DNA of 64,000 nucleotides. Origin: Litchfieldia alkalitelluris (GTDB lineage: Bacteria; Bacillota; Bacilli; Bacillales; Salisediminibacteriaceae). Shown piece after piece: positions 20,245 through 41,632 of this stretch (the stretch's first letter is position 1; every line of letters starts with the position of its first letter). The notes below the pieces were generated by a model, which was not told where the DNA came from, ran no database searches, and saw nothing but the letters and a program-made list of their open reading frames with translations. The stretch is from NCBI RefSeq assembly GCF_002153425.1, contig NZ_KZ119600.1, positions 3,027,920 through 3,091,919 on the forward strand. The letters run 5' to 3'. The translations under genes and the position numbers were made by a program.

Positions 20245-20893
20245 ACTCAAATTGCTTCGCCTAGTCAGTTCAGTCTCCATTTTGAAAAAAATGAAGACTC
20301 AAATTGCTTCGCCTCCTCATTTCAGTCCCCATTTTGAAAAAATGAAGACTCAAATCGCTTCCCTTCCTCATTTCAGTCTCCATTTTGAGAAAATGAAGAC
20401 TCAAATTGCTTCGTCTCCACATTTCAGTCTCCATTTTGAGAAAATGAAGACTCAAATCGCTTTGCTTCCTCATTTCAGTCCCCATTCTGAAAAAATGAAG
20501 ACTCAAATCGCTTCGCTACTCCAGTTCAATCTTCATTTTGAGAAAATGAAGACTCAAATTGCTTCGCTACTCCAGTTCAGTCTTCATTCTGAGAAAATGA
20601 AGACTCAAATCGCTTCCCTTCCTCAGTTCAGTCTTCATTTTGAGAAAATGAAGACTCAAATTGCTTCGCCTCCACATTTCAGTCTCCATTTTGAGAAAAT
20701 GAAGACTCAAATCGCTTTGCTTCCTCATTTCAGTCCCCATTCTGAAAAAATGAAGACTCAAATCGCTTCGCTACTCCAGTTCATTCTTCATTTTGAGAAA
20801 ATGAAGACTCAAATCGCTTTGCTTCCTCATTTCAGTCCCCATTCTGAAAAAATGAAGACTCAAATCGCTTCGCTACTCCAGTTCATTCTTGAA
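20245..20893. repeat. Tandem 51-bp minisatellite, about 12.7 units
   Basis: Units begin ATGAAGACTCAAAT at 20291, 20342, 20393 and every 51 bases on; the first partial unit starts at 20245 and the last is cut near 20893. Because 51 is a multiple of three, several frames stay open across the array, producing a long artefactual frame without a ribosome-binding site. Within each unit AATGAAGACTCAAAT is nearly repeated in inverse as the complement of ATTTCAGTCCCCATT, so each unit can fold. The array ends inside the 3' end of the DUF2294 gene. Confidence 0.9.
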
Positions 20894-23375: not shown

Positions 23376-24458
23376 CTAAACAGAATGCCTACTTGCTCCC
23401 CTCTCAATTGCTAACCTAATTAAATCATCTATAAGATCCTTATAACATCTTCCACTAGCCTCCCATAGTTTTGGATACATACTTTGCTTTGTAAATCCTG
23501 GTAGGGTGTTTATTTCATTTATGATTAAATCGTTATCTTTTGTTAAGAAAAAGTCTATCCTTGCCAATCCTTCACACTGTATAGCCTCAAATGCTTTTAT
23601 TGCTGTCAGCTTCATTTTTTTAACTACCGTATCCTCTAGTACTGCTGGAACAATTAATTGGCTGTCTTTTTCATCTATATATTTAGCTTCATAAGAATAA
23701 AATGAAGAATTGGTCATTACTTCACCAGGTAAAGAAGAGATTGGATAATTATTTCCTAACACTGCACATTCAATTTCTCGTCCATCTATTGCTTCCTCTA
23801 CAATAATTTTATTGTCATAACTAAACGCTGCCTCAATTCCTAGATGAAACTCGTCTTCAGATTCAACTTTGCTAACACCTACAGAAGATCCTTGATTGGC
23901 TGGTTTTATAAACACTGGTAATCCTAATTGTTTTTTTATTTTCTTAAAATGGATATTATTTTCCTCATTCTTTGTAAAGGTAGTATAATTGGCTACTTTT
24001 AACCCTGCATGCAGTAATATTCGTTTTGTAAAATCTTTATCCATACATATTGCTGAGGCCAATACAGAGGAACCTACAAAGGGCATGTTGGTTATACGGA
24101 ATAGTCCTTGCATACTCCCATCTTCTCCTCTCCCTCCATGAAGTAGAGGAAATATAACATCAATCTTTCCCAGAACCTTTCCACTAGGCAACTCTATAAA
24201 TGGATAAATATGATTGCCTGGAATTAATGCAATCCTCTTGTCCGATTTTACTAACTCGATTGAATTTGGGTCATGGCTATTTTTTATACATGAATCCAAA
24301 TTATCATAAAGGTACCATTTCCCTTCTTTATCAACACCAATTAAAACAACGTCGTATTTTCTTTTATCAATAGAATGAACAATACTCTTCACTGATTGCA
24401 AGGAAACTTGATGTTCTGTTGAGTTCCCCCCAAAGAGTATAGCCACTTTTTTCTTCAA
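23376..24458 (-). CDS. ddl: D-alanine--D-alanine ligase (Ddl family), 360 aa
   Basis: This is a complete ATP-grasp ligase: 'LFGGNSTEHQVSL' (substrate loop), 'LLHGGRGEDGSMQGLF', 'PANQGSSVGVSKV' (serine of the catalytic triad), 'YSYEAKYID' (tyrosine typical of D-Ala specificity), and the metal-binding 'EINTLPGFT'. The expected reaction joins two D-alanines with ATP through an acyl-phosphate. A TTG start at 24458 is chosen because AGGAGGTG lies 7 bases upstream; a GTG at 24467 is inside that site. It follows a truncated MurF-like gene, mimicking the normal ddl-murF pair but next to spore-type ATP-grasp genes, so it may be a specialised paralogue. Confidence 0.9.
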   Translation of the reverse strand: MKKKVAILFGGNSTEHQVSLQSVKSIVHSIDKRKYDVVLIGVDKEGKWYLYDNLDSCIKNSHDPNSIELVKSDKRIALIPGNHIYPFIELPSGKVLGKIDVIFPLLHGGRGEDGSMQGLFRITNMPFVGSSVLASAICMDKDFTKRILLHAGLKVANYTTFTKNEENNIHFKKIKKQLGLPVFIKPANQGSSVGVSKVESEDEFHLGIEAAFSYDNKIIVEEAIDGREIECAVLGNNYPISSLPGEVMTNSSFYSYEAKYIDEKDSQLIVPAVLEDTVVKKMKLTAIKAFEAIQCEGLARIDFFLTKDNDLIINEINTLPGFTKQSMYPKLWEASGRCYKDLIDDLIRLAIERGASRHSV

Positions 24459-24525
24459 AAAAAACACCTCCTGAAATACAACATTACAGTTACAGTAGAT
24501 TTTCTGAGCATGTCTTCATAATGAC

Positions 24526-25644
24526 TCATTTTCTTTTTTGATTACGGAGACTATAATTTGCAATATATTCAGATGTTTCTTTCATATACATGCGATGAGA
24601 TCCTTTCACTAAGATGACTATATTTGGTGTAATATGATATTTTAACAATCGGTGTAATGAAGAACGGTTTTTAAATGAATGGATATTCCTTCTAGGAAAA
24701 CCAGATGCAATTGCTCCCTTTTTTATCCCTTCTGCTTTTTCACCTAATGTAAATATCCTATGAACGCCTTTATTTGCTAAATATTTACCGACTTCAGAAT
24801 GTCCTTTCTTAGTGTAGCTTCCTAGCTCAAGCATGCTTCCTATTACTGCAATTTTTTGCTTTCCTATACCTAGGTTTACGAGTACATCAGTTGCCGCTTT
24901 TACTGATTGTGGATTTGCGTTAAAAGTATCATCTATTAATGTAGAATTTTCTGGTAGATTAATGACTCTCAACCTACGACTCGGAGGTTTAAAATTTTTT
25001 AAACCTCTTCTAATTTCATGTGGAGAAAAACCTAGCTTTCGGGCTATTGCAACTGCAAATAATGCATTAATTACATTGTGTTCACCAAATGTGGGAATAA
25101 AAAAACTTTCTAATCTATTATTCAAGTAGACTTGAAAACTCATACCATTTCTCTCATATTTAATATTTCTTCCTTGATAATGTGCTTTATTTTTTATTCC
25201 GACTGTAACAAGATAACCTTTAAATAAGTGAGTTGTTAATAATTTTGAATTTGGATCATCGTTATTTAAAAGCAATATTCCCTTTGGATTCATATATTTA
25301 ATCATCGCAGATTTTTTTTTAGCTGTTGCACTTATACTATTTCCAAGCCTCCCATAATGAGCAGTACCTACGTTAGTAATCACTCCAATTGTTGGCTTTA
25401 TATGATTAAAGTGATATTTGCCGGCAGCCCTGCCTAAACCCATCTCTAAAATAACTGCTTTATGATATGGTCTAATTTTATTGACCATCTCCTTTGTATG
25501 CTTAGGCAGATTCCTATTTCCTGGTGTTTTCATTATTTTAGTCCACTTCGTTTTGAGAATAGAATTGATAAACGCTGTGGTAGTAGATTTCCCAGCGCTC
25601 CCCGTCACTCCGATGACAGGAATTCTCTGTTTATTCCTTGCCAT
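24526..25644 (-). CDS. MurF-like Mur ligase lacking the N-terminal UDP-binding domain, 372 aa
   Basis: The protein begins almost directly with the P-loop 'IGVTGSAGKSTTT' (residues 11-23). It contains the MurF central and C-terminal domains: 'VITNVGTAHYGRLG' (about 88-101), 'GEHNVINALFAVAIARKLG' (about 186-204), 'IDDTFNANPQSV' (about 236-247) and 'IGSMLELGSYTKKGHSEVG' (about 267-285). Ordinary MurF has about 80 further N-terminal residues that bind the UDP-MurNAc moiety and is about 450 residues long. AGGAGAGCTT precedes the start, so this is not a sequencing truncation. It probably ligates D-Ala-D-Ala or a similar peptide to a non-UDP acceptor. Confidence 0.85.
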   Translation of the reverse strand: MARNKQRIPVIGVTGSAGKSTTTAFINSILKTKWTKIMKTPGNRNLPKHTKEMVNKIRPYHKAVILEMGLGRAAGKYHFNHIKPTIGVITNVGTAHYGRLGNSISATAKKKSAMIKYMNPKGILLLNNDDPNSKLLTTHLFKGYLVTVGIKNKAHYQGRNIKYERNGMSFQVYLNNRLESFFIPTFGEHNVINALFAVAIARKLGFSPHEIRRGLKNFKPPSRRLRVINLPENSTLIDDTFNANPQSVKAATDVLVNLGIGKQKIAVIGSMLELGSYTKKGHSEVGKYLANKGVHRIFTLGEKAEGIKKGAIASGFPRRNIHSFKNRSSLHRLLKYHITPNIVILVKGSHRMYMKETSEYIANYSLRNQKRK

Positions 25645-25885
25645 AAGCTCTCCTCCTTATAAAACTTTCACTCCCATTTACGTGTATTTCATATTATTTT
25701 TGTAAGAAAAGCTTGTGCAACAAATTGCCTATTTTCTCCAAAAAAGGCTGATTACATATCTTTTTAATAGACATATGAATGAAAAAATACAATTGTTGCT
25801 TCTATTGTGAACAGTAATCCAAACGGAAGTATACTCGTCTTCATAGATTGGATAAACGAGTCGAAATTAGGAGGGCTATCATAAA
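25645..25885. promoter_or_regulatory. Divergent intergenic region of the ligase cluster
   Basis: This 241-base, AT-rich gap separates the leftward MurF-like/Ddl pair from the rightward ATP-grasp genes and must hold both promoters. I do not see an unambiguous sigma-A promoter pair. A sporulation sigma factor is plausible, but I cannot call its -35 and -10 securely. Confidence 0.35.
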
Positions 25886-27232
25886 ATGAAGATAGAGTGG
25901 TTACAAACTTCAAAGAAGAATACGCTCTTTTTATCCGAACAAACAAGAAAAAACTATAATCTAAAAAAAGATAAAGTTACGCTTCATTATGGAGCATGGA
26001 AAAGGAGAATGTTTATTAAAACTAAAAATGACTTATCTAGAGGAACATTTGGAATTCCTAAGGGGTTATTTGATCATTACACTGTACCTTCAGACTTACA
26101 GTACCAAGTAATGAAGAAGGGAAATTCTATTTTTATTGGTCCAATCATTGCTTTTGTCCCAAAATTAAGTACTATAAAGAAACTGAAAACAAAGGATTTA
26201 AAAAAATTTAATAAAAGAATGACAAAATATCATGAAATTAAAGGTCTGGTTTTTATTTGTGGTTCAAACGATATTAACATAAAAAACCAATCAATTTCGG
26301 GCTACTACTACAATCCAAATGTAAAGAGTAAAGAATCCAGTTGGGTTTATGGGACTTTCCCTTATCCAAGTGCGGTATACACCAGAACACACTTGAAGAA
26401 AAAAGTTAAAAAAGAGCTTGTTAGAAAGATTGGTACTTCTATTTTTAATGATATTTTCAATAAATGGACATTTAGAAATATTGTCCACTCCAATAAAGAA
26501 ACTAGAAAATTCTTACCACATACTGAGCAATTTACGGATGTTGGACAAGTAAAGAGATTGTTGAAAAGGTATAACACTATTTATCTGAAACCACGCTATG
26601 GCTCATTAGGTAAAGGCATTGTCATGATTCGAAGAAGGAAAAGGTCCTACGTATTGATGGACCCCTATAGAAAAAAAAGATCTTTTAGTAATTGGTCTCA
26701 ACTTCATGATTTTTTAAAAAAGTTTTTGACAAAAAATTATATAATCCAACAAGGAGTCCCAACAAAATATCAAAAACGTAACGTTGATTTTCGTATTTAT
26801 ATGCAAAAAGACAAAAATAGAGAATGGCAAGTACAAGGGTTAGTTGCGAGAGTGGCAAAAAAAGGTAGTGTAATCACAAATAGCCACCATCGATATAAAG
26901 CCTTATATGGACATGAACTAATAAAAAAGATGTTTTCATTAAGTCAAGAAGAAACAAATAAAGTTATCACAGAAATAAATAACGCATCTATCAAAGTTTG
27001 TAAAGTAATTGATAAGAGTGACAAAAAAATTGGGGATGTTGCACTCGATTTAATCATAGATAAAAACCTAAAGATTTGGTTTCTTGAATTAAACCTCAGA
27101 TACCAACATACCACATTCAACAACAACCAATTCCCAGATATATACAAAAAGATCATGCCAGTGCCACTTGAATACGCAAAAACCCTTTCTGGCTTTGATG
27201 AAAATAAAAATGATCGAACGATATTTGAATAG
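25886..27232 (+). CDS. YheC/YheD-type ATP-grasp protein, 448 aa
   Basis: An N-terminal domain (about 1-190) of the YheC/YheD type with 'WVYGTFPYPSAVYTR' and 'FNKWTFRNIV' precedes an ATP-grasp domain (about 210-435). Motifs there are 'IYLKPRYGSLGKGIVMI', 'VDFRIYMQKD' and 'GDVALDLIIDKNLKIWFLELNLR' (magnesium-binding E-x-N). B. subtilis YheC and YheD are spore-coat associated and of unknown reaction; the fold predicts carboxylate-amine ligation with ATP. GGAGGGC lies 9 bases before the ATG. It is divergent from the MurF-like gene and followed by an acylphosphatase. Confidence 0.85.
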   Translation: MKIEWLQTSKKNTLFLSEQTRKNYNLKKDKVTLHYGAWKRRMFIKTKNDLSRGTFGIPKGLFDHYTVPSDLQYQVMKKGNSIFIGPIIAFVPKLSTIKKLKTKDLKKFNKRMTKYHEIKGLVFICGSNDINIKNQSISGYYYNPNVKSKESSWVYGTFPYPSAVYTRTHLKKKVKKELVRKIGTSIFNDIFNKWTFRNIVHSNKETRKFLPHTEQFTDVGQVKRLLKRYNTIYLKPRYGSLGKGIVMIRRRKRSYVLMDPYRKKRSFSNWSQLHDFLKKFLTKNYIIQQGVPTKYQKRNVDFRIYMQKDKNREWQVQGLVARVAKKGSVITNSHHRYKALYGHELIKKMFSLSQEETNKVITEINNASIKVCKVIDKSDKKIGDVALDLIIDKNLKIWFLELNLRYQHTTFNNNQFPDIYKKIMPVPLEYAKTLSGFDENKNDRTIFE

Positions 27233-27288
27233 GATGTATCTATAATATCCATGTTGTTTACTATACCCTTAACGAAAGGAAGAAATAT

Positions 27289-27570
27289 ATGGAGACAAAA
27301 CGGTTTATTGTTTACGGTAAAGTTCAAGGAGTTGGATTCAGAAAATTTACTAGAAAACATGCCCGCTTAAATAATATTGTAGGCTGGGTCAGAAACAATC
27401 CTGATGGAACTGTAGAAATTCTAGGAAGGGGCTCGGCTTCTAATATGCACAATTTTATCGAAAAAATTAAAAATGGACCAAAAAAAGCTATTATCAAGGA
27501 TCTGAAATTCATTTCTCACACTAGTAAAACAAGTTTAAAAGAATTTATAATTCTTTATAATTCCAAATAA
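27289..27570 (+). CDS. Acylphosphatase, 93 aa
   Basis: The family signature 'VYGKVQGVGFRKFT' (catalytic arginine in GFR) and 'GWVRNNPDGTVEI' (catalytic asparagine) are intact and the length is normal. Acylphosphatases hydrolyse carboxyl-phosphates. ATP-grasp and Mur ligases both proceed through such intermediates, so placement between ATP-grasp genes may be functional, for example hydrolysing stray acyl-phosphate. It lies 56 bases after the first ATP-grasp gene and is followed by a hairpin at 27588-27624. Confidence 0.9.
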   Translation: METKRFIVYGKVQGVGFRKFTRKHARLNNIVGWVRNNPDGTVEILGRGSASNMHNFIEKIKNGPKKAIIKDLKFISHTSKTSLKEFIILYNSK

Positions 27571-27587
27571 AATCTATTAAATTTAAT

Positions 27588-27630
27588 GAGGCACTTATTT
27601 GAGCTGAATGGTGAAAAGTGTCTCTTCTTA
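27588..27630 (+). terminator. Hairpin after the acylphosphatase gene
   Basis: GAGGCACTT and AAGTGTCTC pair with one mismatch around a 19-base loop, followed by TTCTT. Confidence 0.45.
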
Positions 27631-27750
27631 AGGTGCTTTTCTGTTATTCATTCAAATGCTGTTGTAATTGTCTATACGCTCTAAGTCATGCATTCATATA
27701 CTAATTTTGAAATAGGGATATCAAAACTACAAACAAAAAAGGTGATACTA

Positions 27751-28905
27751 ATGGAGGAAAACACAAAAGAGCAAACTACAATTATTGGCGTTTTTTTGCC
27801 TAGTAATAGTATAAACAAAATAGAAAAAAATAAAGGGAGTTTACTTTGGAGGGAAATGGTGGAAGCAAATAAAAATTGGCAAACAACCCTTTATTTTTTT
27901 TGCGAGAAAGATATTGATTATAATACTAAGGAGATTAACGGGATCTATTTTGATACCCACCTAAACAAATGGACAAGAAACCAGTTTCCATATCCCAATA
28001 TACTGTACCGCAGAGTAAGTACTTTAAATCAAGAGAAGTGTCAAAAGTTTTTGAAGCAGATAGAAGAAAGGAATATAATGATTATTAATTATGATAGAAT
28101 TTTTAACAAATGGGACCTTCATCAGCAGTGTTCAAACAGCTCATTTTTCTCTAAATACTTGCCAGAGACCATTGATTACGAAAATAGGAAAAGTCTCTTG
28201 ACGATGCTCAATAAATATAAAGAACTATATTTAAAGAAATACTGTAGTGGGCAAGGAAAAGATGTATTGAAGGTGATCAAGTTCTCTCCGAGCCATTATG
28301 AATGCCAATACTTCAGAACAAGATTAAGAATTAAAACATTTCGAAGTTTTTCATCACTAGTGAACTATGTAGAAAGTTTTTTTCAGAATAAAGAATTTAT
28401 TATACAAGAAGCCATTCGTTTTCAAACATATAACGGACGGCCATTTGACATCAGAGCGGAATTACAACGGGATATTAATAATCAAATTAATATAACGGGC
28501 ATTACAGTACGGGCTGGCAAAAAAAAATCACCTGTTACAACACATGGGAATAGTTACAAGTTAGAATCCTTCTTTATAAAGAAATTACACTATACAAAGA
28601 AAGAATTTATTCAATTAGAACAGGAAATGAATACATTCTTAAAAGATGTATATAAAAATATTGAGAAGATTTATGGATCTTGCGGAGAATTAGGAATTGA
28701 CTTCGGAATTGATCAGGATCACAAACTATGGTTTATTGAAACGAACGCGCAAACGAAAAAAGTGTCATTACGTAAGGCTTATGGAAGTGGAAAAGTACGA
28801 GAAACTTACAACCACTTGCTTGGTTATGCAAAATTACTAACAGATAAGCCTGAATTATTTAACGAAGGAAATATGGTATCTTTAAATTCACAAAATGTTT
28901 CCTAA
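27751..28905 (+). CDS. YheC/YheD-type ATP-grasp protein, 384 aa
   Basis: N-terminal 'NGIYFDTHLNKWTRNQFPYPNILYRRVS' and 'INYDRIFNKWDLHQ' motifs precede an ATP-grasp domain: 'LYLKKYCSGQGKDVLKV', 'PFDIRAELQRD', 'GELGIDFGIDQDHKLWFIETNAQ' (E-x-N). It closely resembles the gene at 28931 in the C-terminal half ('KVSLRKAYG' versus 'KVSLKKAFG'), so these two are paralogues. ATG at 27751 is used because AAAGGTGAT lies 4 bases upstream; an upstream ATG at 27688 has no ribosome-binding site. A spore coat location is inferred from the family. Confidence 0.83.
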   Translation: MEENTKEQTTIIGVFLPSNSINKIEKNKGSLLWREMVEANKNWQTTLYFFCEKDIDYNTKEINGIYFDTHLNKWTRNQFPYPNILYRRVSTLNQEKCQKFLKQIEERNIMIINYDRIFNKWDLHQQCSNSSFFSKYLPETIDYENRKSLLTMLNKYKELYLKKYCSGQGKDVLKVIKFSPSHYECQYFRTRLRIKTFRSFSSLVNYVESFFQNKEFIIQEAIRFQTYNGRPFDIRAELQRDINNQINITGITVRAGKKKSPVTTHGNSYKLESFFIKKLHYTKKEFIQLEQEMNTFLKDVYKNIEKIYGSCGELGIDFGIDQDHKLWFIETNAQTKKVSLRKAYGSGKVRETYNHLLGYAKLLTDKPELFNEGNMVSLNSQNVS

Positions 28906-28910
28906 TAGGA

Positions 28911-28950
28911 AAAGGCGGATTAATTTTTGATTAAATTAATCCGCCTTTAT
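28911..28950. terminator. Bidirectional terminator overlapping an ATP-grasp 3' end
   Basis: AAAGGCGGATTAATTT (28911-28926) and AAATTAATCCGCCTTT (28933-28948) form a 16-bp perfect stem with a 6-base loop. The right arm contains the last codons and stop of the leftward gene, so the structure is part of its coding end. Confidence 0.85.
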
Positions 28951-30043
28951 TATTTGCAATATATTTAGCATACTCTAAAAGTGCGACGTATGACATTCTC
29001 ATTCCATCATCACCGAATGCCTTTTTAAGAGATACTTTTGCTGACATGGAATTGCACTCTATATACCATATATCCCCTTCTTGGTCTATTCCAAAATCTA
29101 TCCCTATTTCACCACATTTACCGTATATACTTTCAATTGATTTGTACGTTGTCTCTAAAAATTCCTTAACTTTCTTTTCTAATAAAGAAAATTCCTGTTC
29201 ATCGTATTTCATCAATGTCTTGAAAAAGTAATCATAAGGATAACTAAATGCATGTGTTGTAATTGGAGAACTCTCGCTTCCTGCACGAGCACTAATAGCA
29301 ATAATTTCAATATTTCCTTTCCCGTTTCTCTGGACCTCCGCACGAAAATCAACTAACCTATTACCATAAGAAAGTAAATCAATTCCTGGCTGCATTAATA
29401 TTTCATCAGTATAGAAATAATCATCTACTTTATTAAAAAGTTCCTTATACGTTCTAACATTTTTTCTTACAAGTTTTTTTGAATAATAACTATACTCAAA
29501 CTTGTTAGAATTTATTTTTTTCACACGCATTATTTGCTTTCCACGAGCACTTTTATAAGCTTTTAGATAAACTGTTGTGTAATTTTTTAACATCTTTTTT
29601 ATTCCAACTTTTGAATTGTAGCGTTTTGTAACTGGTAAATAGGGGGTCATGTCTTCCAATTGACTTAACCCTTGATAAACCTTCCATTTATTAAAGCTAT
29701 TTTCATAATTCAATCGTTTCACTTTATGGTCCTTAAGCAACTTTTTTAGCCTAGAATATTTAGGTTTATTTAAACTAGCTGTTCGTCTATATATAACATG
29801 TGGGATTGGGAACTTTTTTTCTCCCCACCTACCAGTTTTATGATTATAAAAGACTCCTGTAATGTTTTTATTTATAAAATCAACCTTCTTTAAAGTAAAA
29901 AAGTATACTTGTATATCCACCTTCTTTAATGCACCAACTAGTGTTTGTTTTGAGAGTTTGTTTTGTTTTAGTTTTCTTAAATGTCTTGAATTAGTAAGAA
30001 TACCTAAATACGTATTTTCCGAAGCTACCATGTCATTATTCAT
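28931..30043 (-). CDS. YheC/YheD-type ATP-grasp protein, 370 aa
   Basis: The family N-terminal motifs 'NKNITGVFYNHKTGRWGEKKFPIPHVIYRR' and 'LNYENSFNKWKVYQ' are present, then ATP-grasp segments 'VYLKAYKSARGKQIMRV', 'VDFRAEVQRNG' and 'GEIGIDFGIDQEGDIWYIECNS'. It is convergent with its paralogue at 27751 and shares a terminator with it. All catalytic-type residues (E-x-N, basic phosphate-binding lysines) are retained, so it should be active. The start has GGAAGG close upstream. Confidence 0.83.
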   Translation of the reverse strand: MNNDMVASENTYLGILTNSRHLRKLKQNKLSKQTLVGALKKVDIQVYFFTLKKVDFINKNITGVFYNHKTGRWGEKKFPIPHVIYRRTASLNKPKYSRLKKLLKDHKVKRLNYENSFNKWKVYQGLSQLEDMTPYLPVTKRYNSKVGIKKMLKNYTTVYLKAYKSARGKQIMRVKKINSNKFEYSYYSKKLVRKNVRTYKELFNKVDDYFYTDEILMQPGIDLLSYGNRLVDFRAEVQRNGKGNIEIIAISARAGSESSPITTHAFSYPYDYFFKTLMKYDEQEFSLLEKKVKEFLETTYKSIESIYGKCGEIGIDFGIDQEGDIWYIECNSMSAKVSLKKAFGDDGMRMSYVALLEYAKYIANNKGGLI

Positions 30044-30242: not shown

Positions 30243-30683
30243 TTAATTTTTCTTATATTTTCTTTGCTGTGCTTCCTTTTGAACATTCCGCGTAAACCAG
30301 TCAACTCCTTCATTATCTATTGTTGAATCCTCACTACTTAATACTTCACTATTGTTATCACTATGTTTATTATTTTCCTTAAGACTTTCTAACTCTTCAT
30401 TCAATGCATCTCTCATTTTATTTACTTCATCAAGCTTTTCTATTAATTCTGCATTTTCCTTTTCTTTCCTGTCCTTCTCTTCATGTACCTCTTTAAAGCT
30501 CCTTTCTAACAATTTGTTCCTACTCTCTAAAACTTGATTTTTTTCTTTGAGTTCCTCTAATAATTGATAATGATAATTATTCTGGTAATCAGCGATTTTT
30601 TGACGACATTTAGATAATTCCGATTGTAGGTGGATCACCTTCTGTTGTAACTGTGTAGTTGTAAGTGATTTTTTTCTTTGCAC
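30243..30683 (-). CDS. Coiled-coil protein, probably spore-coat associated, 146 aa
   Basis: Residues 10-105 form a long coiled coil rich in E, K, L and Q; the C-terminus is acidic and ends 'VDWFTRNVQKEAQQRKYKKN'. The segment 'LQQKVIHLQSELSKCRQKIADYQ' resembles the N-terminus of the protein at 31729 ('LNQKVLHYRSELEKYKRQI'), suggesting a shared oligomerisation domain. The GTG start has GGAGGGG 6 bases upstream. It is divergent from a coat morphogenetic gene. No known family is assigned. Confidence 0.65.
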   Translation of the reverse strand: MQRKKSLTTTQLQQKVIHLQSELSKCRQKIADYQNNYHYQLLEELKEKNQVLESRNKLLERSFKEVHEEKDRKEKENAELIEKLDEVNKMRDALNEELESLKENNKHSDNNSEVLSSEDSTIDNEGVDWFTRNVQKEAQQRKYKKN

Positions 30684-30865
30684 TCATTTCCCCTCCCTGA
30701 AATAGATTAGATGATACTGTGACCGACACTATTATATGTTCCTTTTTGCCCAAAGTTGCTAACCTGAGCCCAACAATTGAAAAACAAAGTACAAATATTA
30801 CACTTTTTCATATGATGAAGTAGTCCCGATAAAAGAATATTATTAATGAAAGGATGAATACAATA

Positions 30866-31546
30866 ATGTCCAAATTAGAACGTCTTTGTGTAAGGGTTCC
30901 AAAAGTATACGATTGGGTCACGCGTCAAGTAGATAGAGAGCGTCAATTTGATAGTCTTGATAGGTTAGCCTTTGTATGTAACGATATTGAAGAAAACGAT
31001 GAAGTTGATCCATGTGAATTCTTAAATGATGATGAAGATTTTATCGTAAATATAATTCCTACTGACGAAGATGGAGATGAAATTGACGCGTCCGAAATTG
31101 ATTGTCGAGAAGTAGGTCCTAGACAAGACATTTTTGTAGAAGAACTAGGAGTAGAGCTACAACTCGTTAAGTTGAAACTAGAAGGATTCTATGTAGTCGA
31201 ATTGAGAAACGAAGTAACTAATGAAGTTGTATGTGTGTCTAGCCCGATACCATTCTGTATCCCACAAAAGTTTTTATTATGTGCGCCTGAAGGAACTGAA
31301 ATTAACTGTCATATCTTTGATTTCTTTGGAAATGGTGTACTTTGCTGCAGCAACGGTGAATTTGTCGAGTTAGCCGTAACAAAAACATTTTGTCTCTCAG
31401 TCCAAGCAGAGGCAGATGTAAAAGTAGAAATAGAAGGACGTCTTTGCAAACCTCGTGAGGATATGATAGAGCCTATATTCGAGGAGAAATGTCCAAAAAT
31501 CACGTTCCCACCACAATGTCCAGAAATCTTTCCTCCTAAACACTAA
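30866..31546 (+). CDS. Spore coat morphogenetic protein (BMQ_0737 type), 226 aa
   Basis: The N-terminus 'LERLCVRVPKVYDWVTRQVD' is the signature of a group of Bacillus spore-coat or exosporium proteins. The rest is acidic with nine or more cysteines ('CNDIE', 'DPCEF', 'IDCREV', 'FCIPQKFLLCAPEGTEINCHIF', 'LCCSNGEF'), consistent with disulfide cross-linked coat assembly. ATG at 30866 follows AAAGGATG by about 9 bases and is better than the ATG at 30854. A strong terminator follows. Confidence 0.8.
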   Translation: MSKLERLCVRVPKVYDWVTRQVDRERQFDSLDRLAFVCNDIEENDEVDPCEFLNDDEDFIVNIIPTDEDGDEIDASEIDCREVGPRQDIFVEELGVELQLVKLKLEGFYVVELRNEVTNEVVCVSSPIPFCIPQKFLLCAPEGTEINCHIFDFFGNGVLCCSNGEFVELAVTKTFCLSVQAEADVKVEIEGRLCKPREDMIEPIFEEKCPKITFPPQCPEIFPPKH

Positions 31547-31728: not shown

Positions 31729-32400
31729 ATGTCAAACAAATATCAAAAGATAATAAAAAATAAAGATGATAAAATAACACAACTTAATCAAAAAGTACTA
31801 CATTATCGTTCAGAGCTAGAAAAGTATAAAAGACAAATTATTAACCTCGCAAAACAGGGAAAACAATTAGAACCGGAAGAGACACTCGAAGAAAAAAGAG
31901 AAGATTTGTTTAAAGAGGAATTCGAAAAAAATGTATTACCCGTACAATCTTATTTTTCCTACTCATCGTTTTTCGAAGGTTCTGTAGAAGAGGAGAACAG
32001 AGTTGACATATTTGGAAATTTTGTTTTTCAAAACATATCTGATCAAGTGTTTATTGAGCCTGTTATTTGCTTTCGAGTAAAACCAATAGGCAAAGTAAAT
32101 TTTGGGGGTAAAATTAGTGCAAAGCAGCCACTAACAGATGATTATTTAATTGAAGAAAATGAGGAATGGACTTATTCACAAAAAAATTGGAGAGAAACAG
32201 TGAATGGAAAAGGAGAGCATTGGATAAAGCCACTCCATTTTCAAGAATTGAAGCCCTTTGAGACTAGGAAGTTCTCAAACTTTAACATTTCAGTTGAACA
32301 TTCACCTGAATACTCTCATTACTTAATAGAAGGTTTCTTTTATGCTCGTAATTACAAAAAGGGTATTCCAGCAGTAAATTCTATATCCTTATATCTTTAA
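31729..32400 (+). CDS. Coiled-coil plus beta-domain protein, probably spore coat, 223 aa
   Basis: An N-terminal coiled coil (about residues 8-70) precedes a beta-rich C-terminal domain (about 75-223), with alternating 'GNFVFQNISDQVFIEPVICFRVKP' and 'RKFSNFNISVEHSPEYSHYLIEGFFYARNY'. The latter resembles immunoglobulin-like folds that bind partners. AAGGGAGGG lies before the ATG. Together with the genes at 30243 and 30866 it forms a probable coat subcluster; the function is not known. Confidence 0.65.
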   Translation: MSNKYQKIIKNKDDKITQLNQKVLHYRSELEKYKRQIINLAKQGKQLEPEETLEEKREDLFKEEFEKNVLPVQSYFSYSSFFEGSVEEENRVDIFGNFVFQNISDQVFIEPVICFRVKPIGKVNFGGKISAKQPLTDDYLIEENEEWTYSQKNWRETVNGKGEHWIKPLHFQELKPFETRKFSNFNISVEHSPEYSHYLIEGFFYARNYKKGIPAVNSISLYL

Positions 32401-40848: not shown

Positions 40849-41632
40849 GAGCAATAGTGAGAATCTCGCGTGAGATTGACTGCTTATCGAACGCGAAAAT
40901 GAACAAAAGTGGGAAACTCGCGTGAGATACCTAGCTTATCGAACGCGAAAATCAACAAAAGCAAGAAACTCCCGTGAGATACCTAGCTTATCGAACGCGA
41001 AAATCAACAAAAGCAAGAATCTCCCGTGAGATAGAGCGCTAATCGAACGCGAAAATCAACAAAAGCAAGAAACTCGCGTGAGATACAAAGCTAATCGAAC
41101 GCGAAAATCAACAAAAGTGAGAATCTCACGTGAGATAGAGCGCTAATCGAACGCGAAAATCAACAAAAACAAGAAACTCGCGTGAGATACAAAGCTAATC
41201 GAACGCGAAAATCAACAAAAGTGAGAATCTCACGTGAGATAGAGCGCTAATCGAACGCGAAAATGAGCAAAAGTGAGAATCTCGCGTGAGATACCTAGCT
41301 AATCGAACGTGAAAATCAACAAAAGCAAGAATCTCGCGTGAGATACCTAGCTTATCGAACGTGAAAATCAACAAAAGCAAGAATCTCGCGTGAGATACAA
41401 AGCTAATCGAACGCGAAAATCAACAAAAGTGAGAATCTCACGTGAGATAGAGCGCTAATCGAACGCGAAAATCAACAAAAACAAGAAACTCGCGTGAGAT
41501 ACAAAGCTAATCGAACGCGAAAATCAACAAAAGTGAGAATCTCACGTGAGATAGAGCGCTAATCGAACGCGAAAATGAGCAAAAGTGAGAATCTCACGTG
41601 AGATAGGCCCCTAATCGAACACGAAAGAGTAT
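40849..41632. repeat. Tandem 52-bp minisatellite, about 15 units
   Basis: Units carry 'cgaacgcgaaaatcaacaaa' spaced every 52 bases and, in most, the palindrome TCTCACGTGAGA or its CTCGCGTGAG variant. Units alternate between types following 'agagcgct' and 'acaaagct', forming a 104-bp higher-order period. A block of about 211 bases starting near 41073 recurs without change 312 bases (six units) later. There is no spacer diversity and no cas gene. Confidence 0.9.

Follow-up and report, generated by a model that had tools for sequence, protein, structure and literature searches.

A headless MurF-like ligase clustered with a D-alanine–D-alanine ligase and YheC/YheD-type ATP-grasp proteins in Litchfieldia alkalitelluris: a candidate spore-surface peptide-ligase system

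MurF adds D-Ala-D-Ala to UDP-MurNAc-tripeptide by means of its N-terminal domain, while the related ligases PgsB/CapB and MurT lack a UDP-binding head. The YheC/YheD (YheCD) family of ATP-grasp proteins reportedly stems from a 2009 survey of amidoligases. In the cyanophycin synthetase CphA1, an ATP-grasp domain and a Mur-like domain reside in one protein, in which one extends the chain and the other adds to its side chains (PMC9262961). In Bacillus subtilis, YheD is described as a spore-coat protein without a determined function, and a YheD shell surrounds the spore (PMC7911427); yheC and yheD are described there as sigma-E genes stimulated by SpoIIID. Here, we analyzed a 64,000-nucleotide stretch (the window, C1:3027920-3091919) of the 4.88 Mb genome of Litchfieldia alkalitelluris, which carries a cluster of peptide-ligase genes centered on a MurF-like protein without a head. 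On balance, we slightly favor the view that this cluster represents one variant of a peptide-ligase system of the spore surface in Bacillales, acting late in the mother cell. The coordinates and gene calls of an earlier sequence-only reading of this stretch proved correct when checked against the sequence, and family scans recovered the content that it had described:

23376..24467, minus strand: DdlA-type D-alanine–D-alanine ligase (ddl; NF002525, 515 bits against a cut-off of 457; PDB relatives)
24526..25644, minus strand: headless MurF-like ligase (mur), central ATPase and C-terminal domains only (Pfam/NCBIfam, alignments, tree, AlphaFold/Foldseek)
25886..27232, plus strand: AG1, YheC/YheD-type ATP-grasp protein (PF14398, 217 bits)
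27289..27570, plus strand: acylphosphatase, 56 bp after AG1 (PF00708, 88 bits)
27751..28905, plus strand: AG2, YheC/YheD-type ATP-grasp protein, corrected start (PF14398, 227 bits)
28931..30043, minus strand: AG3, YheC/YheD-type ATP-grasp protein, convergent with AG2 (PF14398, 225 bits)

The headless Mur resembles MurF in its central and C-terminal domains, its P-loop, the conserved residues E67, H96, and K111, a motif of the DD-x-(Y/F)NANP type, and its best PDB matches, which are MurF both by sequence and by fold. In contrast to MurF, it lacks the N-terminal UDP-binding domain, falls into a separate clade, scores 247.4 bits on the murF model TIGR01143 (cut-off 288.6), and is linked to YheCD genes and, at some loci, to coat genes. 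The order of ATP-grasp followed by Mur in CphA1 recurs in YheCD–Mur fusions among the relatives. However, the score on the CphA model TIGR02068 is 65 bits (cut-off 850), and, unlike in CphA1, the Mur part is nearer to MurF, the ATP-grasp part is YheCD, dipeptide makers take the place of arginine, and the two activities lie on separate genes in the window. The missing UDP-binding head is shared with PgsB/CapB and MurT, but the scores on TIGR04012 (34.3 bits against 222.7) and NF052464 (42.5 against 800) are far below the cut-offs; membership of the CphA, PgsB, and MurT families was thus ruled out. The window ATP-grasp proteins belong to the same family (PF14398) as the endospore coat-associated YheC and YheD, which are under sigma-E and SpoIIID control in B. 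subtilis, whereas a sigma-K-like motif is found here.

The absence of the MurF N-terminal domain, already proposed from the sequence alone, is evident from the domain architecture: only PF08245 and PF02875 are present, starting at residue 13, with the P-loop at residue 15. PF01225, of the UDP-MurNAc-tripeptide-binding domain, is present in the genome's canonical MurF and absent from the headless protein. Since the open frame of 376 codons is just 4 codons longer than the called gene, a head domain hidden upstream is excluded. The AlphaFold model has a predicted local distance difference test score (pLDDT) of 88.7, and its ten best Foldseek matches are all MurF. Because the head is missing, and is missing throughout the clade, the acceptor is likely not UDP-MurNAc-tripeptide, in line with the non-UDP acceptor suggested earlier. 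The ratios of nonsynonymous to synonymous substitution (dN/dS) relative to Evansella vedderi are 0.12 for mur, 0.13 for ddl, 0.15 for AG2, and 0.24 for AG3, values that are only rough because dS exceeds 1. Selection on these genes is therefore favored and, in the absence of stops, decay into pseudogenes was ruled out. Canonical ddl and murF genes lie side by side elsewhere in the genome (C1:828306 and C1:829505), which likewise rules out a replacement of the housekeeping MurF. A decayed mur and the lack of a second murF and ddl, two of the findings named in the sequence-only reading as arguments against itself, were thus not what this genome holds.

A headless-Mur profile built from 21 sequences was run against 397 genomes of the order. 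Matches above 400 bits occur in 23 of them and the remainder reach at most 322 bits; membership of the headless clade was accordingly defined as a score above 400 bits, within the gap from 412 to about 321. A midpoint-rooted tree of 104 rows places 49 headless proteins in a single group (support 100/99), next to a group of 30 MurF-like proteins that retain a head, and gives canonical MurF a separate group of 24 rows (100/100). Two rows labelled MurF (L171 and L174; numbers of this kind denote individual loci) sit in the MurF-like clade, and the Pfam N-terminal Mur model fails to recognize the head in the four MurF-like proteins scanned. Two headless proteins fall outside the headless group, one with canonical MurF (L198:9204-10271) and one on a long branch (L054:7307-8407), so the head was lost more than once. 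The L198 protein, which is 46% identical to the MurF of the window genome and has no YheCD gene in its 20 kb, represents an independent loss.

Relatives at 44–49% identity occur in Syntrophomonadaceae metagenome-assembled genomes (MAGs), one other Bacillota MAG, and one Gammaproteobacteria MAG; this contig scan covered the best 80 of 109 loci, of which 64 at 22–33% identity were set aside. Eighteen phage records match at 28–33% identity. The Gammaproteobacteria MAG carries, behind asparagine-synthase and PqqD-like genes, a tandem of three headless Murs, of which the third is joined to an AMP-binding domain (L059:7857-14813); this arrangement resembles a cluster of the lasso-peptide type in which Mur enzymes do the tailoring. 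In two Syntrophomonas loci (L054:9983-11891 and L055:2545-4507), the headless Mur adjoins a gene of the BacA (undecaprenyl-diphosphatase) family, and both of these Murs have the relaxed sigma-K-like pattern described below upstream. A second headless Mur in Salipaludibacillus (G033, L048:12831-13751) is broken by stops inside a full-length match, showing that losses occur; this truncated copy is counted among the 37 Bacillales genes below and excluded from the set of nine promoters.

The Bacillales set comprises 37 headless genes at 34 loci. YheCD is fused to the headless Mur in 16 of these genes, lies within 5 kb in 13 more, and does neither in eight. Both domain orders exist, YheCD–Mur (mostly 720–750 aa) and Mur–YheCD (about 800 aa), so the fusions arose independently; the Mur–YheCD proteins group with the clade of the window (100/93) and are encoded directly downstream of an Asp/Glu racemase in both cases. 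A YheCD neighbor, fused or near, is present in 24 of 29 carrier genomes against 0.57 expected by chance under random placement, and a YheCD gene anywhere in the genome is found in 28 of 29 carriers against 18 of 29 chosen non-carriers. The 20 murF control regions consist of eight with an adjacent ddl, taken as canonical, and 12 without, termed headed MurF-like by that criterion. None of the eight canonical regions has YheCD in its 20-kb stretch. All 12 headed MurF-like loci (L202, L203, L205–L212, L216, and L217), only some of which are confirmed by tree or best match, have YheCD within 195 bp; as 11 of them come from one genus, they are not independent. Since this headed family also adjoins YheCD, the system extends beyond the headless branch. 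A co-occurrence of headless MurF with YheC/YheD, which the earlier reading suggested looking for, is thus borne out across genomes, and the fused relatives support the idea that the Mur and YheCD parts belong, and would work, together. Linked peptide ligases are said in general terms to often act in succession (PMC4431377). The open-access literature yielded no paper tying YheC/YheD to Mur ligases, subscription papers, the 2009 amidoligase survey among them, being outside that search. The system is real, conserved, and apparently undescribed.

The window genome carries eight YheCD genes, three of them in this cluster. The window proteins score 217–227 bits on PF14398 (cut-off 26.8), and D338, E351, and N353, a D..E.N set that we take to be Mg-binding, are invariant in 12 aligned sequences. 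A YheCD profile found no match in the PDB by sequence. By structure, among the 50 matches listed, the AG2 fold is nearest to ArgX/LysX and RimK, at 13–16% identity, with TTLL11 and TTLL6 lower; CphA is absent from these 50, which excludes nothing.

The ddl of the window has both PF01820 and PF07478. Six loci have a Ddl within 400 bp of the headless gene, 16 have an L-amino-acid ligase (LAL) there, and none has both; PF18603 was found in the LALs scanned. The motif following the DD pair of the headless Mur reads DDTFNANPQS in the Ddl-linked group and DDTVHSHP in the LAL-linked group, and the canonical MurF counterpart in this alignment is NDAYNASP. The C-terminal domain of Mur ligases is described as binding the added amino acid (PMC11915815). 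An adjacent true Ddl and the MurF-type NANP motif make D-Ala-D-Ala a fairly probable donor in this clade, as had been proposed; Ddl itself is not universal, being replaced by LAL at 16 loci. An Asp/Glu racemase lies near five Mur genes (L047, L134, L175, L177, and L181), and in E. vedderi the racemase shares one frame of 340 aa with an acylphosphatase (L047:7598-8620). Acylphosphatase is found at four loci, namely the window, L047, L048, and L134.

Evidence on timing comes from promoters and neighbors. We assumed AC-N16/17-CATANNNTA as the sigma-K consensus; a relaxed pattern, AC-N16/17-[AC]ATANNNT[AG], was set after viewing the sequences, allowing A or G at the last base and A or C at the first -10 position. 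The candidate sites and the genes beyond the ligase cluster are as follows:

25690..25717, minus strand: sigma-K-like site before mur, CACAAGC-N12-AATAATATG, with A in place of C at the first -10 position (pattern scan, alignment)
25823..25850, plus strand: sigma-K-like site before AG1, AC-N17-CATAGATTG (pattern scan)
27676..27703, plus strand: sigma-K-like site before the corrected AG2 start, AC-N17-CATATACTA (pattern scan)
Upstream of 28931..30043, minus strand: relaxed sigma-K-like site of AG3, AC-N17-AATACGATA (pattern scan)
30756-30730, minus strand: sigma-K-like site before the small gene 30243..30683 (pattern scan)
30791..30817, plus strand: sigma-K-like site upstream of the coat gene, AC-N16-CATATGATG (pattern scan)
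30243..30683, minus strand: small gene whose relatives adjoin the coat gene in L134 and L051 (sequence comparison)
30854..31546, plus strand: BMQ_0737-family morphogenetic spore-coat protein (NF052457, 195 bits against a cut-off of 71)
31729..32400, plus strand: coat-gene neighbor with relatives in L051, L134, and L177 (no family match; presumptively labelled CotO)

The relaxed pattern precedes mur at all nine loci of the window clade (1000 Markov shuffles: mean 0.27, maximum 3), or at nine of ten when the second Mur of L048 is included, and at none of eight canonical murF genes. Among window genes of at least 80 codons, only mur, AG1, AG2, AG3, the 30243 gene, and the coat gene have it at their start. 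The strict form matches 14 times in the 64 kb; three of these matches lie no more than 150 bp ahead of a gene start, and the genes concerned are AG1, the coat gene, and the 30243 gene. At 29 loci taken together, 21 of 146 cluster genes have the strict form ahead of them, compared with 3 of 337 other genes, with MurF/MurF-like, NlpC, and Ddl genes excluded on both sides and 70 bases inside the genes also scanned. Among ligase genes, 8 of 117 have the unrelaxed consensus upstream, compared with 2 of 322 others (p 6e-4), and 11 scrambled motifs gave null results. For YheCD genes in window-clade loci, the relaxed pattern is found in 5 of 23 against 10 of 171 other genes (p 0.02). A scan for the sigma-E motif showed no enrichment, and a sigma-70 scan gave 36 sites against 37.8 in shuffles. 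As for neighbors, BMQ_0737-related genes lie within 5.3 kb of the Mur in the window, L051, L134, and L177. CotZ-like genes, defined by a custom profile (Pfam on four of the 12: three over the cut-off, L182 just under), occur at 12 of 34 Bacillales loci, and NlpC/P60 genes at 17 of 34. In B. subtilis, CotZ is described as a morphogenetic protein of the crust (PMC7439481). The sporulation role suggested earlier is likely on this independent, sequence-based evidence, and expression late in the mother cell is quite probable.

Taken together, these observations suggest how the slightly favored system would operate. Ddl would make D-Ala-D-Ala, and the headless MurF would activate a carboxylate with ATP and couple the dipeptide to it. 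The YheCD ATP-grasp proteins would make or extend the acceptor, an acidic peptide of Asp/Glu residues, free or on a coat or crust protein, whose residues would probably be of the D form where a racemase is present. By analogy with the ATP-grasp and Mur-like domains of cyanophycin synthetase, Mur and YheCD may alternate on one chain. That a YheCD product is the acceptor of the headless MurF we regard as moderately probable. The core idea of a real ligase cluster, advanced in the sequence-only reading, survives, while its composition is more modular than was described, Ddl not being universal.

Several observations weigh against this reading. The sigma-K-like signal is weak outside the clade of the window: the relaxed pattern precedes 4 of 27 headless genes at the remaining Bacillales loci and 2 of 12 outside Bacillales, and among loci L175–L197 it precedes 4 of 36 YheCD genes against 19 of 295 others (p 0.23). 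The window gene at 31729 has no relaxed site. SpoIVA is present in all 23 sampled carriers but also in 382 of 397 genomes, so its co-occurrence is uninformative. For eight of the 37 Bacillales headless genes, and for five of 29 genomes, YheCD is neither part of the same protein nor present within 5 kb; the 12 non-Bacillales genes have none in the stretches examined. The mur–ddl pairs of L049 and L050 have no YheCD within 10 kb, mur stands with neither Ddl nor YheCD in L052, L133, L135, L196, and L197, and in L192, from a genome that has no YheCD, mur is joined to a different ATP-grasp with a weak match to LAL_C2. Motif and donor maker are imperfectly coupled: Halalkalibacter okhensis (L051), inside the Ddl clade, has a LAL yet retains NANP. 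The window cluster contains no racemase, and the two PF01177 genes over the cut-off in this genome lie elsewhere. Finally, Foldseek alone ranks Ddl-type enzymes first for YheCD.

Alternative explanations differ mainly in the acceptor. The headless MurF and YheCD might tag coat or crust proteins without any free polymer, YheCD adding residues as RimK/TTL do and the MurF capping side chains or the end with a dipeptide. The YheCD fold, nearest to the carrier-protein ligases ArgX/LysX and to RimK, and the presence, at six loci (L176 and L181–L185), of a CotZ-like gene no more than 200 bp from the fusion speak for this possibility; however, no protein substrate common to the loci was found, and 22 of 34 Bacillales loci, the window included, have no CotZ-like gene in the stretches examined. 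We regard protein tagging as possible but doubtful; it overlaps with the preferred reading, which allows both a free and a protein-bound product, so the probabilities we assign sum to more than one. Alternatively, the enzyme could act on peptidoglycan, restoring D-Ala-D-Ala on lipid-linked or polymerized tripeptide stems of the cortex or germ-cell wall, as MurT/GatD act on lipid II. MurF is indeed the closest enzyme by sequence and fold, Ddl is adjacent, the Ddl-linked group retains NANP, and BacA-family genes in two Syntrophomonas loci and NlpC/P60 genes at half of the Bacillales loci would fit. The loss of NANP in the LAL-linked group, a fusion to YheCD that is hard to rationalize for a murein precursor, the existing housekeeping murF and ddl, and neighbors that are coat rather than cortex genes make this role improbable.

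LAL, ATP-grasp, and Mur-like ligases are typical of secondary-metabolite pathways, and the cluster could make a soluble dipeptide-type metabolite or antibiotic, with the coat genes as chance neighbors. Two ABC-transporter genes (PF00664/PF00005) follow the YheCD–Mur fusion and a CotZ-like gene in L176:8822-12302, look-alike transporter frames occur in L183–L185 of the same genus (by resemblance, without a family scan), and the Gammaproteobacteria cluster is lasso-peptide-like. Sigma-K-like promoters and recurring coat genes stand against this, and it is very unlikely in our estimate. Equally remote is a polymer of the vegetative cell envelope, comparable to teichuronopeptide, in haloalkaliphiles. 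The named Bacillales carriers Evansella, Salipaludibacillus, Alteribacillus, Halalkalibacter, and Texcoconibacillus are presumably halo- or alkaliphiles, and pyruvyl-transferase-type and UDP-glucose-dehydrogenase-type polysaccharide genes flank the L047 cluster; the promoter evidence and the spread of the gene's relatives across many families of the order argue otherwise.

Within the preferred spore-surface reading, a more specific and speculative proposal, which we consider doubtful as a whole, is that spores carry a cyanophycin-like non-ribosomal peptide, with an acidic, partly D backbone made by YheCD and D-Ala-D-Ala grafted by the headless MurF. If this were true, the spore surface would display D-Ala-D-Ala that is not part of peptidoglycan, the graft would differ by clade depending on Ddl or LAL, and YheC/YheD, coat proteins without a known role, would gain a function. 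MurF and Ddl, both enzymes of peptidoglycan synthesis, would have been co-opted for an additional product that is not murein. The fusions, the Ddl/LAL exchange, and the sigma-K-like promoters indicate the chemistry to seek, a peptide with grafted dipeptides, as well as the place and time, the outer coat or crust in the late mother cell.

Several details of the window complete this description. The open reading frames used in the scripts are mechanical calls. mur and ddl lie on the minus strand, divergent from AG1–acylphosphatase and then AG2, and AG3 converges on AG2; ddl is 58 bp downstream of mur and probably co-transcribed with it. The first ~187 residues of AG1 matched no Pfam family. The AG2 start, called at 27688, is most likely 27751: the ribosome-binding site and the orthologous start in L047 both point there, a sigma-K-like site lies just upstream of that position, and model residues 1–27 from the called start have pLDDT below 50. 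Between the AG2 and AG3 ends, a candidate shared terminator was found:

28911..28948, strand not assigned: 16-pair hairpin with a T-rich flank (terminator scan)

The hairpin makes the previously proposed shared terminator plausible, although in total the scan did not exceed shuffled sequence (four terminators against 3.5). Phage defence was ruled out as a function, none of six cluster proteins having a PADLOC match at E up to 1e-5.

Other loci offer minor observations. Plasmids of Priestia megaterium (pBM600 and pBM300; L220, L221, and L222) carry a divergent LAL–YheCD pair with no Mur match. Strains of P. megaterium without pBM600 are described as lacking an exosporium, and every exosporium-less strain of that study was without this plasmid; the account does not exclude pBM500 and, in its available text, does not name the LAL–YheCD genes (PMC4674009). 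The window genome also encodes a 715-aa protein with a Ddl-like ATP-grasp and an M20 peptidase domain (L143:6971-9118; C1:221971-224118). In L195:19557-20000, a YheCD–Mur cluster adjoins a fabI fragment that is 83% identical to the fabI near the coat genes of the window, hinting at a shared genomic site. The window further contains two tandem arrays, at 20245-20874 (51-bp period, 12 copies) and 40852-41626 (52 bp, 15 copies), which are 86–88% alike, and similar-looking repeat frames occur elsewhere in the same genome (L140 and L143).

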